In this document: positions 12,546-62,302 of the stretch, piece by piece | How the letters are laid out: each line of letters begins with the position of its first letter | How positions within the stretch are numbered: position 1 is the first letter of the stretch | NCBI GenBank assembly: GCA_014859965.1 | Contig: JACZKQ010000019.1 | Span: 62,001-126,000 of the forward strand | Length of the DNA stretch: 64,000 nt | DNA from: Phycisphaerae bacterium | Lineage (GTDB): Bacteria; Planctomycetota; Phycisphaerae; Sedimentisphaerales; Anaerohalosphaeraceae | Reading direction: 5' to 3' | Position numbers and translations under genes: made by a program | Notes under the pieces: model-generated | Database searches by the model: none | What the model was told of the DNA's origin: nothing | Seen by the model: the letters and a program-made list of their open reading frames with translations, nothing else

Positions 12546-13118
12546 GTGAGCAGAACAGCGGCAACAAACAGTCCGGTGAGCACGTTCGAAGCAATTGCAA
12601 TGCCGCACCTCGACGCGGTTTACCGCACAGCTTACGCGCTGTCGGGCCGAAGCGATACCGCCGACGATCTGACCCAGGCCGCCCTCTTAAAGGCGCTGGA
12701 GCACTTCAGCTCGTTTCAGGTAAATACGAATTGTAAGGCATGGCTGCTGCGGATTCTGCGCAACATCTGGATCGACCGGCTCCGCAGACTCAAGACGGCC
12801 GGACCGCAGTTGCCGCTCGATGAAGCGCTCGTCGGTGAGGCCCCGGAAATAGCCGAAAGTGTATGGTCCGATGCACACGACCTGCTCGAAAACTTCTCTG
12901 ATGAACAGGTCATAAAGGCCCTCGCCCAGCTCGCCGTCGAGCAGAGGCTTACACTATATCTCGTGGATGTCGAAGGGCTCGGCCACGAGGAAGTTGCCGA
13001 GATCACCGGCGTCGCCGTCGGCACCGTCAAGAGTCGAACAAGCCGGGCCAGGGCGACGCTCAAGAAGTGCCTGGCCGCGCGTGCGAACGAAATGGGCTGG
13101 GCGGGAGAACGAAGATGA
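12546..13118 (+). CDS. ECF-subfamily RNA polymerase sigma factor
   Basis: A 190-residue sigma factor of the extracytoplasmic-function type. Region 2 is seen at about residues 20-85 (DAVYRTAYALSG, ADDLTQAALLKALEH, CKAWLLRILRNIWIDRLRR). Region 4 is at about 125-180 with the helix-turn-helix GLGHEEVAEITGVAVGTVKS. Sigma region 3 is absent, as expected. The reported start is a GTG with no strong ribosome site; a second GTG at 12576 would shorten it by ten residues. It begins 64 bases after the RND pump, and its stop overlaps the ATG of the anti-sigma gene (ATGA), so the pair is translationally coupled. Control of the metal-efflux genes by this pair is possible but only inferred from position. Confidence 0.92.
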   Translation: MSRTAATNSPVSTFEAIAMPHLDAVYRTAYALSGRSDTADDLTQAALLKALEHFSSFQVNTNCKAWLLRILRNIWIDRLRRLKTAGPQLPLDEALVGEAPEIAESVWSDAHDLLENFSDEQVIKALAQLAVEQRLTLYLVDVEGLGHEEVAEITGVAVGTVKSRTSRARATLKKCLAARANEMGWAGERR

Positions 13119-13888
13119 TCCACCTTACCGATATAGAATTCGAAGATATCATGGCAGGCGCCGCCGCCGAGTTCGAGAACCTGCACCTGCTCCAGTGCGC
13201 CCTGTGTCGCGGCCGTCTCGCCGAAAAACAAGCAATTGCAAGCCGCCTGCAAAAAGCATTTGCCGAAGTACACGTTTCCGCGGCTCTCGCCGAACGCATC
13301 GCCCTGCAAACCCGCGCCCCCGCCGTACAACAGCCGCAGGCCGCACCGCCCAGGCGCCGCCGTTTCGCCGCACATTGGCGCAGTTGGGCCGCCGCCGCAT
13401 CCGCAGCGGCCGCCTTGATCATCGCCGTGCCGCTCCTCGTCTATTTCACCACGCCTGCGCCCGCCCTTGCGGCCCTCGCCGACATCCACCACCACAATAT
13501 GTCTGAAACCGGCGACTTCGTCAGCGAGACCGACCCCGCCATACTCGCGGCACACTTCAGGGAGCACCTCGGCTTCAATCCCCGCCTCCCCGAACCGAAT
13601 CACGGCCTCGCCCTGCGCGGCTGCTGCGTCCGGCGGTTCCAGGGCGACATCGCGGGCAGCTACGTCGTCGCCACCCCGCAGGGCGTCATGACCGTCGTCG
13701 TCGTCCGGCAGACCCCCCAGGCGATGGGCATCACGGACCGCGTGCAGCGCAATGGCCAGGTCTACTGGAAAAGTGCATTCGCCCTCTCCAACATGGTTTC
13801 CGTCAGGATCGGCGAATACTCCTACTGCGCCGTTGGCGAAGTCTCCCACAACTACCTCACGGACCTCCTCGCCCGCCTCCTCGACTGA
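13115..13888 (+). CDS. Membrane anti-sigma factor with zinc-finger (ZAS-like) motif
   Basis: A 257-residue protein starting at the ATG that overlaps the sigma-factor stop; a GAGAACGAAG purine-rich site precedes it. An HxxxCxxC motif (His24, Cys28, Cys31) marks a zinc-containing anti-sigma domain at the cytoplasmic N-terminus. A single membrane segment lies at about residues 83-106 (WAAAASAAAALIIAVPLLVY). The extracytoplasmic C-terminal part holds a Cys-Cys pair (GCCVRRFQG) and the sequence VVATPQGVMTVVVVRQTP, which may sense a metal or redox change. It should hold the upstream ECF sigma factor inactive at the membrane until a signal arrives. The sensing chemistry is not determined by the sequence. 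Confidence 0.85.
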   Translation: MIHLTDIEFEDIMAGAAAEFENLHLLQCALCRGRLAEKQAIASRLQKAFAEVHVSAALAERIALQTRAPAVQQPQAAPPRRRRFAAHWRSWAAAASAAAALIIAVPLLVYFTTPAPALAALADIHHHNMSETGDFVSETDPAILAAHFREHLGFNPRLPEPNHGLALRGCCVRRFQGDIAGSYVVATPQGVMTVVVVRQTPQAMGITDRVQRNGQVYWKSAFALSNMVSVRIGEYSYCAVGEVSHNYLTDLLARLLD

Positions 13889-15003: not shown

Positions 15004-15058
15004 ACCAAAAGCAAAACAGAAACATTAGATTACGTCGCCGCATACAGGTGCTTGCATT

Positions 15059-15165
15059 GTGAAGATCGTGGTGCTGGATGGCTATACGCTCAATCCGCAG
15101 GACTTAATGTCCGGGCCTTTGTCGCCGGTACATTGCAGAACGTGGTAAACGGTGTGATGGGCTGA
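15059..15165 (+). pseudogene. Internally deleted relic of a D-2-hydroxyacid dehydrogenase (glycerate dehydrogenase type)
   Basis: From the GTG at 15059 the frame reads MKIVVLDGYTLNPQDL, the typical first residues of this NAD-dependent dehydrogenase family. At about 15104 the frame changes, and from 15106 to 15165 a second frame reads NVRAFVAGTLQNVVNGVMG and then stops. That is the typical C-terminal end of the same family. Nearly all of the roughly 320-codon gene between these ends is missing, including the Rossmann domain and the catalytic residues. The two halves are in different frames, so no product is expected. The match to both ends comes from family knowledge and was not confirmed by alignment. 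Confidence 0.7.
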
Positions 15166-15212
15166 TGCCGGCCTGGACACGTGAATTGCTGTCAGGCGGT
15201 CTGGCGGCGCAT

Positions 15213-15233
15213 AAAAAAGCCCTTGTTCAGGGC
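15213..15233 (-). terminator. Rho-independent terminator of csrA
   Basis: On the minus strand GCCCT and AGGGC form a stem with a five-base loop (219-233 region), followed by six T residues (218 down to 213). It lies 47 bases after the csrA stop codon. Confidence 0.8.
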
Positions 15234-52136: not shown

Positions 52137-52889
52137 ATGAAGAAGGTACTGGTGATGATAGCCGTCGCAGCGGCGGCCGGCTTGTGGACGTACATGGCGC
52201 ATCAGGCAAAGGCCGCTGACAGCGGAGCGACCGAAGCCGCCTGCGAAACACCCGCCTTTGTCTCGCTGTTTAACGGCAAGGACCTCACAGGCTGGGTGAA
52301 CGTTAACACAGCCGAGGATACGTGGAGCGTCCGGGAGGGGCTGTTGATCTGTAAGGGCCAGCCCATCGGGGTCATGAGGAGCACGCGGCAATACGAGAAC
52401 TTCATCCTCGAAGTGGAATGGAGGCACATGGAGGCCGGCGGCAACTCGGGCATGTTCTTGTGGAGCGAGCCGGTGCCGCCGCAGGGCCAGCGGTTGACCC
52501 GCGGCGTTGAAGTGCAGATGCTTGAGTTGGAGTGGGCTGTGCAGCACAACCAGACCGATGATTACGTTCACGGCGAGTTGTTCGGCACCATGGGTTTGAA
52601 GGTGGTCCCCGACAACCCGCGCGGTGTTCGGAGCAAGTCCATTGAAAAACGCTGCAAGGGCAAGGGCCAGTGGAACAAGTACACGGTGGTCGCTGTAGAC
52701 GGCGTTATGAAGCTCGCGGTCAACGGTAAATTCGTCAACGGGATCAGTAAGTCGGAATGCAAAAAAGGCTACATCTGCCTCGAATCCGAGGGTGCAGAAA
52801 TCCATTTTCGCAATCTCCGCATTCTCGAATTGCCGCCGGGAATCACACCGCCTGAAATGACTGCGACGGTAGCCGAATCGAAGAACTGA
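52137..52889 (+). CDS. Exported DUF1080 (3-keto-disaccharide hydrolase-type) protein
   Basis: A 250-residue protein with a signal peptide ([26 protein letters not shown]). A single DUF1080 lectin-like domain follows: [51 protein letters not shown] and the C-terminal [11 protein letters not shown]. Such proteins are abundant in Planctomycetes, and some members act on oxidised disaccharides. AAAGGG lies before the ATG. It sits between hisI and hemC, a mixed set of genes that may simply share a transcript. Confidence 0.88.
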
Positions 52890-52917
52890 CGATTTGGACT
52901 GGAAATTAAAGGCACTC

Positions 52918-53850
52918 ATGAAACAGATTCGCATAGCGACGCGCGGAAGCCGGTTGGCGATGGCGCAGTCGGAGTATATCAAGCGCCGCATTGAGGAGAT
53001 CGCCCGGGGCGTGGAGGTGGTGCTCGTCACAATCAGCACGAAGGGCGACCGCGATCAATCCGACTTTCTTTACAAGTCCCAGTCGGTCGGCTTTTTCACA
53101 TCTGAGGTGGAGACCGCCCTGCTGGACGGACGTGCCGACGTGGCGGTTCACAGTCTCAAGGACCTGCCCACCACGTATGCCGAAGGGCTGGTGGTGGCGG
53201 CGATTCCGAGGCGCGAATCGACGGCCGACGTGCTGGTCGCGCGGGGCGGCGTGTCATCGCTTGCTGACCTGCCGACGGGAGCCTCCGTAGGTACATCGAG
53301 CCTGCGGCGGATCGGGCAGATGAAACACCTGCGGCGGGACCTCAATAGTGTGCCGCTCAGAGGCAATGTGGAAACGCGGGTGAGCAAGGTGGAATCGGGC
53401 CAGGTGGATGCGATTATCCTGGCGGAGGCGGGGCTCAATCGCCTTGGCCTGTCAGGCAAGATTTCGGCCGTCCTGGACTGCCGGACCTTTCCCACGGCGC
53501 CCGCACAAGGGGCGCTTGCCGTTGAGATTCGGGCGGACGACGCGGCGCTGGCTGAACACATAGCCCAGATAGACGATCGTGACACTCGCATCGCGGCCGA
53601 AGCGGAGCGGGGGATACTGGCGGCGATGCACGGCGGCTGCAGTATTCCGTTGGGGGTTTGGAGCCGCGTCGAAGAAGACACGATTACTCTGGAGGGTACT
53701 ATTTCTGATGTAGATGGAAATGTACGCATCCAGCGGAATGGGTCGGCCCCGGTGCAGGAGGCGGCAGATCTGGCCCGCAAACTGGCACAGGATCTGCTGG
53801 ACGGAGGTGCACGCACGATACTGGCACGAATACGCCAGGAGAAGAGGTAG
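52918..53850 (+). CDS. hemC: Hydroxymethylbilane synthase (porphobilinogen deaminase)
   Basis: A 310-residue enzyme that polymerises four porphobilinogens in heme synthesis. Diagnostic segments are IATRGSRLAMAQSEYI, ISTKGDRDQSDF, FTSEVETALLDGRADVAVHSLKDLPT, GTSSLRRIGQM, VPLRGNVETRVSKV and the dipyrromethane-cofactor Cys in AAMHGGCSIPLGVW. The ATG at 52918 with AAAGG upstream is preferred to a TTG at 52894. It starts 28 bases after the DUF1080 gene. It fits the c-type cytochromes seen elsewhere in the window. Confidence 0.95.
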   Translation: MKQIRIATRGSRLAMAQSEYIKRRIEEIARGVEVVLVTISTKGDRDQSDFLYKSQSVGFFTSEVETALLDGRADVAVHSLKDLPTTYAEGLVVAAIPRRESTADVLVARGGVSSLADLPTGASVGTSSLRRIGQMKHLRRDLNSVPLRGNVETRVSKVESGQVDAIILAEAGLNRLGLSGKISAVLDCRTFPTAPAQGALAVEIRADDAALAEHIAQIDDRDTRIAAEAERGILAAMHGGCSIPLGVWSRVEEDTITLEGTISDVDGNVRIQRNGSAPVQEAADLARKLAQDLLDGGARTILARIRQEKR

Positions 53851-60994: not shown

Positions 60995-61063
60995 CGTCAA
61001 TTCTGAGCCTGGCCGGCAGTTCATGTCCGGCCTCGCAGTTTCTGATACAATTTTGAGGTCTCC

Positions 61064-62302
61064 ATGAGCCTGCTGAGTCGTCTTATCGGCTTACCCACAT
61101 TTATTTGCCTTTTGGCCGGGGCAGCAGTTGCCTGCCGGTACAACGTCCGCGATGTCGGTTTCGTGGACCTTGGCGTCGACACCTGCACTCTCTTTGCGCT
61201 CGTCGATAGTGAATCTTCGCCAGCCATGCTCGCCGACTTCAAAGCTGCCATTTCCGAGGCATTTAGCGAAACGGATATTCGCAGCGAACTGATTAACACG
61301 GCTGACGACCCCGGCCATCCGGCCGTCAGTCTGGCCGAAACCGCCGGCGTGACCTCGCCCCCGGCAGCATTGTTCGTCGCGCCCGACGGCCGATTTCGCA
61401 CGTTCACATTCGCCTCTGAAGGCGCGACATCCAGGACGACACTGGCAAGCCGCCTGGATGCCCTTGCCAGTTCCCCGCTTCGAAACCAGATCGCCGAAGC
61501 CTGCGCCGCAAGATATGCCGTGGTCTTAATCATCGAAGGTCCGGACGCCCAGGAAAATGCTGCCGCGATAAGTGCCGCCCGCGCCGCCACGAAGTTCATG
61601 ACCGAGCACCTGAACTTCCTCCCCAAGCCGGTCGCCGCAGGGCCCCTCACCCTGACGCTCGCCCGCGACGCATTTGAGCTGGAAGAACTGCTCCTCTGGT
61701 GCCTTAATCTCGCACCTGAACAAATCCTCCGTCCGCACGCGGCCATCTTCTACGGCCGGGCACGGCAAATCGGGCCTGTTCTAAAAGGCGACGAGGTCAC
61801 CGAAAACATGCTCGCCAACATCCTCTCGCTCATCGGCGCTGACTGCGAATGCGGCCTGGACCGGCGATGGATGGAAGGTCCGCTGCTGCCCGCAAAATGG
61901 TCGACCGAGACGAGGGCCCGGCTTGTTAAGTCACTCGGCTTCGATCCCGACAGCCCTATGGTCAAAATGGAAGTCAGCATGATCCTCAGAAAAGGCGCGA
62001 TGTCGTCCGGCCGGTGGGACGTCGCCGGACTCGGCAGCGTGCCCTACGGCTATCAGGAAATCGTCATAGACTTCGATGACCCTAAGGCCCCTGCCAACGA
62101 GTCAATGATAACCCTCGCCGACGAGTCTCTCGTCAGGAAGGCTCCGCAGTCCTCACTGCCGCCCGAGAATGCCTCTCGGCCCGGCAGGAACACCGGCGAA
62201 TCTTTGCCCTTTGCGGCAGCGCTGGCCCTGCTGGCCGGTTGCGGCGCCGCGGTTGTCGGGATCGGAATAGCGATATACTGGCGGGCACATTTGAGAGCAT
62301 AG
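61064..62302 (+). CDS. Secreted/membrane protein of unknown function, partner of an FtsX-type ABC transporter
   Basis: A 412-residue protein. An N-terminal signal (LPTFICLLAGAAVACRYNVRD) with a Cys could make it a lipoprotein. The middle has a thioredoxin-like alternation of strands and helices (CTLFALVDSESSPAMLADF, PPAALFVAPDGRFRTFTF), but no CxxC pair sits in the active position. A C-terminal membrane helix closes the protein (FAAALALLAGCGAAVVGIGIAIYW). It directly precedes, and lies on the same strand as, the FtsX/MacB-type permease and its ATPase, so it may be the periplasmic component of that exporter. No family name is assigned. Confidence 0.65.
   Translation: MSLLSRLIGLPTFICLLAGAAVACRYNVRDVGFVDLGVDTCTLFALVDSESSPAMLADFKAAISEAFSETDIRSELINTADDPGHPAVSLAETAGVTSPPAALFVAPDGRFRTFTFASEGATSRTTLASRLDALASSPLRNQIAEACAARYAVVLIIEGPDAQENAAAISAARAATKFMTEHLNFLPKPVAAGPLTLTLARDAFELEELLLWCLNLAPEQILRPHAAIFYGRARQIGPVLKGDEVTENMLANILSLIGADCECGLDRRWMEGPLLPAKWSTETRARLVKSLGFDPDSPMVKMEVSMILRKGAMSSGRWDVAGLGSVPYGYQEIVIDFDDPKAPANESMITLADESLVRKAPQSSLPPENASRPGRNTGESLPFAAALALLAGCGAAVVGIGIAIYWRAHLRA

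Follow-up and report, generated by a model that had tools for sequence, protein, structure and literature searches.

A stretch of 107 bases, at positions 15059 to 15165 of the window, carries two short tips which, beyond reasonable doubt, come from the two ends of a gene of the D-2-hydroxyacid dehydrogenase family, chance resemblance being excluded. The window is the 64,000-nucleotide segment of contig JACZKQ010000019.1, from a Phycisphaerae bacterium, that was analysed here. The stretch lies between two intact genes: it begins 55 bp downstream of a gene for a CehA/McbA-family metallohydrolase, and it faces csrA. We propose that it is the dead remnant (pseudogene) of a dehydrogenase gene, from which an internal deletion removed the middle and left both tips, and we place the probability of this reading at a little over nine in ten. 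A first-pass annotation, made from the letters alone, had described the DNA in the same way, and this description is now strongly supported by the scores of the tips, by their order and by a spacing of 286 codons between the corresponding blocks of intact genes. The remnant is an ordinary pseudogene of a known kind. Its value is that of a clear textbook example, in which gene loss via a large internal deletion remains legible from two tips, one of 16 residues and one of 19. The case also carries a caution, since such remnants score under the thresholds of the domain libraries and are visible only with profiles of gene ends.

Homology of the two tips

Translation places both tips where the first-pass annotation had put them (Table 1). 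The N-terminal tip, VKIVVLDGYTLNPQDL, opens with a GTG codon; its literal translation is VKIVV..., with the V read as M at initiation, and its last codon is completed by an A at 15106 that is shared with the other tip. The C-terminal tip, NVRAFVAGTLQNVVNGVMG, is in the frame of 15061, two bases out of the frame of the N-terminal tip. Its first conserved codon, AAT, starts at 15106, and its stop codon, TGA, occupies 15163–15165. The two blocks overlap in the relic by one base (TTA/AAT at 15106), and the open frame left by the GTG start is 29 codons long.

Scoring matrices were built for two blocks, the first 16 residues and 14 residues near the end, from 30 intact genes of the organism's own family and order, that is, 30 of the 32 full-length genes described below, including that of genome G003 and leaving out those of G039 and G047. 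The controls were leave-one-out scores of the intact genes, the rest of the window on both strands and in six frames, and 40 first-order Markov sequences of window length. The N-terminal block of the relic scores 53.2 bits, against a leave-one-out range of 43.6–64.9 for intact genes, a next best score of −2.9 in the window and a Markov maximum of 8.2. For the C-terminal block, the score is 33.9 bits, with an intact range of 31.4–50.8, a next best of 7.6 in the window and a Markov maximum of 15.7. The best places for the two blocks fall on one strand and in the correct order, with their starts 47 bases apart. Both features that mark this ancestry are present, namely the N-terminal block around IVVLDGYTLNPGDL of the D-2-hydroxyacid dehydrogenases and the C-terminal block NVxAFxxGxxxNVV close to the stop. 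The resemblance to these enzymes that had been suggested for each tip is thus borne out, with both scores inside the range of intact genes.

When 59 genomes were searched with the N-tip pattern, the organism's own included, it matched only this locus and G003, a genome of the same family. The G003 match (locus L040) opens a full-length gene of 321 amino acids, which starts MKIVVLDGYTLNPGDL, ends NVRAFLSGRSINVVNGVSE and agrees with both relic tips end to end. The nearest solved structure to the G003 protein, by sequence, is Protein Data Bank entry 5tx7 (E 2.7e-106), which the N-terminal tip also matches in a phmmer search (E 0.025). The ends of the relic correspond in sequence, order and strand to a 5tx7-type D-isomer-specific 2-hydroxyacid dehydrogenase (PF00389/PF02826), but the relic is without about 89% of such a gene, including the NAD-binding domain.

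The 29-codon open frame from a GTG start would also be in keeping with a small functional gene or an RNA element whose likeness to the tips is incidental. However, one enzyme family is matched twice, independently and in the correct order, and the C-terminal tip sits in a different frame. In Rfam, the only match had an E value of 0.84 and reached 21.2 bits, where the gathering score is 60, and nothing rose above threshold; moreover, the DNA of 15030–15220 was matched in only one of 39 relatives (G019, over 37 bases). We regard the probability of such an element as negligible. The G019 match (E 2.2e-4) was rejected as chance, being inside and antisense to a 193-residue reading frame that we take to be thioesterase-like.

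Table 1. Features of the relic and its surroundings, in window coordinates
Feature	Position	Strand	Basis or remark
N-terminal tip of the former D-2-hydroxyacid dehydrogenase gene, made up of a GTG start and 15 codons, VKIVVLDGYTLNPQDL	15059..15105	+	translation; 53.2 bits
C-terminal tip, NVRAFVAGTLQNVVNGVMG, and stop TGA	15106..15165	+	translation; 33.9 bits over 14-residue block
Putative deletion junction	15105..15106	.	A at 15106 may be read with the N-terminal tip (TTA) or the C-terminal tip (AAT); about 859 bp fewer than in intact genes
Intact gene upstream of the relic, for a CehA/McbA-family metallohydrolase of 329 amino acids	14014..15003	+	NF038032, 89.9 bits (cut-off 80)
Intact convergent neighbour csrA, frame of 106 amino acids	15280..15600	-	PF02599, E 6e-24
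Probable intrinsic terminator of csrA, lying between that gene and the relic	15219..15233	-	terminator scan

The proposed deletion and its alternatives

In 25 of the 30 intact genes, the spacing between the two blocks is exactly 286 codons, and in the remaining five it is 284–290. With the overlap of one base, the missing DNA amounts to 858 + 1 = 859 bp; division by three leaves a remainder of 1, in agreement with the frame offset seen here. Relative to intact homologues, then, the frame is broken, as in a pseudogene, by a two-base offset and the absence of about 859 bp. Domain PF02826, the NAD-binding Rossmann domain, spans residues 107–286 of the G003 protein and falls wholly inside the deleted part; it is absent from the relic, neither frame of which gives a Pfam match. 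Since the NAD-binding domain lies in the missing part, no active enzyme can be made.

We propose that the ancestral gene, of about 322 codons, stood opposite csrA and 55 bp after the end of the CehA-family gene, and that a deletion of about 859 bp fused its codon 16 to the codon of a conserved Asn near residue 303. This event would have taken out the NAD-binding domain and put the two ends out of frame with each other, so that a reading frame of 29 codons is left and no enzyme can result. The junction, which had been expected around 15104–15108, is placed within that range, at 15105/15106. Beyond the shared A, one further base matches on one side in 20 of the 30 intact genes and on the other side in 8 of 30, so the microhomology, as judged from relatives, would be at most about three bases. 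So few shared bases would suit ordinary illegitimate recombination or replication slippage. A repeat scan returned nothing beyond short direct repeats; of one 11-base pair, one member lies near the junction, at 15110–15120, but the other sits in csrA, not across the deletion.

Kuo and Ochman 2010 (PMC2916853) describe deletion as a common route of gene inactivation in Salmonella, with short deletions predominating. The present relic is likewise a gene inactivated by deletion between intact flanking genes, but it differs from such bacterial pseudogenes under deletional bias in that the deletion is large, with about 89% of the gene gone and both tips kept.

An assembly collapse, in which the gene is intact in the assembled cells and the assembler joined across it, had also been raised in the first-pass annotation, and the genome is indeed an assembly of 199 contigs. 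A collapse, however, normally needs a repeat, and no more than three bases could fit both sides of the junction, to go by the 30 intact genes. Searches of the assembly with the PF02826 profile and the G003 protein gave no other place that holds the missing middle. In addition, an invariant Gly is already altered in the remaining N-terminal tip: Gly14 of the NPGD motif, present in 30 of 30 intact genes, is Gln in the relic. We therefore disfavour a collapse and hold it to be very unlikely. A related possibility, unlikely in our estimation, is a live presence/absence polymorphism, in which the deletion is real, some cells of the source population keep an intact dehydrogenase here, and the allele captured by the assembly is the deleted one.

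The same searches bear on whether an intact copy resides elsewhere in the genome. The PF02826 profile gave seven matches, three of them above the cut-off: L001 (204 bits), L002 (114.5) and, weakly, L003 (27). The G003 protein matches two places in the genome, and when compared with the seven PF02826 loci it has good matches only to L001 (35% identity) and L002 (26%), both far from the type of the relic; against L003–L007 there was nothing good, the best E value being 0.024 (L005). From their translations, we take L001 and L002 to resemble phosphoglycerate dehydrogenase and PdxB. As neither search gave a gene of the relic's type, an intact copy elsewhere was rejected.

The tips alone cannot distinguish one event from a variant that overlaps with our favoured explanation, in which the N-terminal tip stems from one of two neighbouring copies and the C-terminal tip from the other, or in which several deletions followed one another. 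Nevertheless, all 36 fetched loci with the dehydrogenase carry one copy, and a single event is simpler; we consider the variant highly improbable and a single event the likely course.

Several points weigh against a single internal deletion in this gene. With 16 and 19 residues, the tips are short, and neither the 29-residue frame of the N-terminal tip nor the 34-residue frame of the C-terminal tip has a Pfam or NCBIfam match. An intact gene at this locus was seen in no sister genome, the 147 relatives including none of the same genus, and it is from the tips that the single-event reading is drawn. In the fetched loci, whose flanks were mostly about 1.5 kb either side and in a few cases about 6 kb, the dehydrogenase is nowhere beside csrA, and no close relative of it is beside the CehA gene, L118 having only a distant match of 27%. 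The same picture would result if a deletion had run across two tandem copies or if two deletions had followed one another. Finally, the join is probably, but not certainly, present in the organism itself.

Age of the loss

The first-pass annotation took the relic as a sign of recent genome reduction, and the two parts of that statement fare differently. The combined score of the tips, 87.1, is in the lower part of the range of intact genes (80.5–115.6), 27 of the 30 scoring higher. In a simulation of neutral decay, the score of the relic was reached by 32% of sequences at 5% divergence, by 6% at 10% and by 0.8% at 15%; the simulation assumes a typical starting score, so that "young" is meant only loosely. 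Because the tips are little decayed, the loss looks young, and we regard a recent date as moderately supported. The change of Gly14 to Gln, for its part, would be a sign of relaxed selection or decay.

Genome reduction, on the other hand, was rejected. At 5.28 Mb, the genome is larger than those of 37 of 38 relatives in the family, which range from 1.3 to 5.7 Mb as listed (several of the small ones being 57–90% complete), and only G059 (5.7 Mb) exceeds it. The window is densely coding as well. A simple gene picker leaves six gaps of more than 250 bases, two of them wrongly: the apparent gap at 53040 belongs to a complete-looking frame on the plus strand (52873–53850), presumably hemC-like, and 61046–62236 is an open frame on the plus strand that was passed over. 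The other gaps were screened by eye on the listed frames. What is recorded here is the loss of a single gene rather than the shrinking of a genome.

Intact relatives and neighbouring genes

The G003 protein is found at full length, with at least 54% identity, in 32 of the 147 relatives and in 8 of the 38 of the same family, G003 included. This count excludes G134 (full length, 45%), partial matches in G111, G132, G073 and G019, a second place in G074, and G004, whose match is in two halves on two contigs. The dehydrogenase is thus patchy among relatives, and therefore its loss is unremarkable. The nearest NCBIfam model to the G003 protein is NF005069 (PRK06487, "2-hydroxyacid dehydrogenase"), where it scores 323.9 bits, under the cut-off of 448.

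The product of the CehA/McbA-family gene reaches 17.7 bits with the Pfam PHP model, under the cut-off of 26.4. Upstream of this gene, at 12546–13888, are what we take, from the translations, to be an ECF-type sigma factor-like frame and an overlapping frame for a possible anti-sigma factor. Seven loci with CehA relatives were seen in other lineages, none of them with a csrA match. An argument from operon structure or synteny led nowhere, since the fetched loci, within their mostly short flanks, show no dehydrogenase by csrA.

On the other side of the relic, csrA is matched in 49 of the 59 genomes, the organism's own included. The scan that gave its probable terminator is weak by itself, with two sites found against a shuffle mean of 1.2. 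At this terminator, window positions 15204–15223 are identical over 20 bases to a sequence in G006 (L091) that lies about 80–100 bases beyond the point where the csrA match ends, and the 17 bases of 15203–15219 are identical in G047 (L037). The minus-strand segment 15280–16778 holds csrA and a protein of 306 amino acids (orf306), which is without a Pfam or NCBIfam match and is, by its look, probably membrane-bound. A match to orf306 is present in 51 of the 59 genomes, again counting the organism's own, and csrA and orf306 occur together in all 30 fetched csrA loci (L010–L039, one of which is the organism's own). By its csrA-orf306 locus, the closest relative is G011 (L124), in which the frames beyond csrA are presumably those of a transporter-like and an oxidoreductase-like protein.
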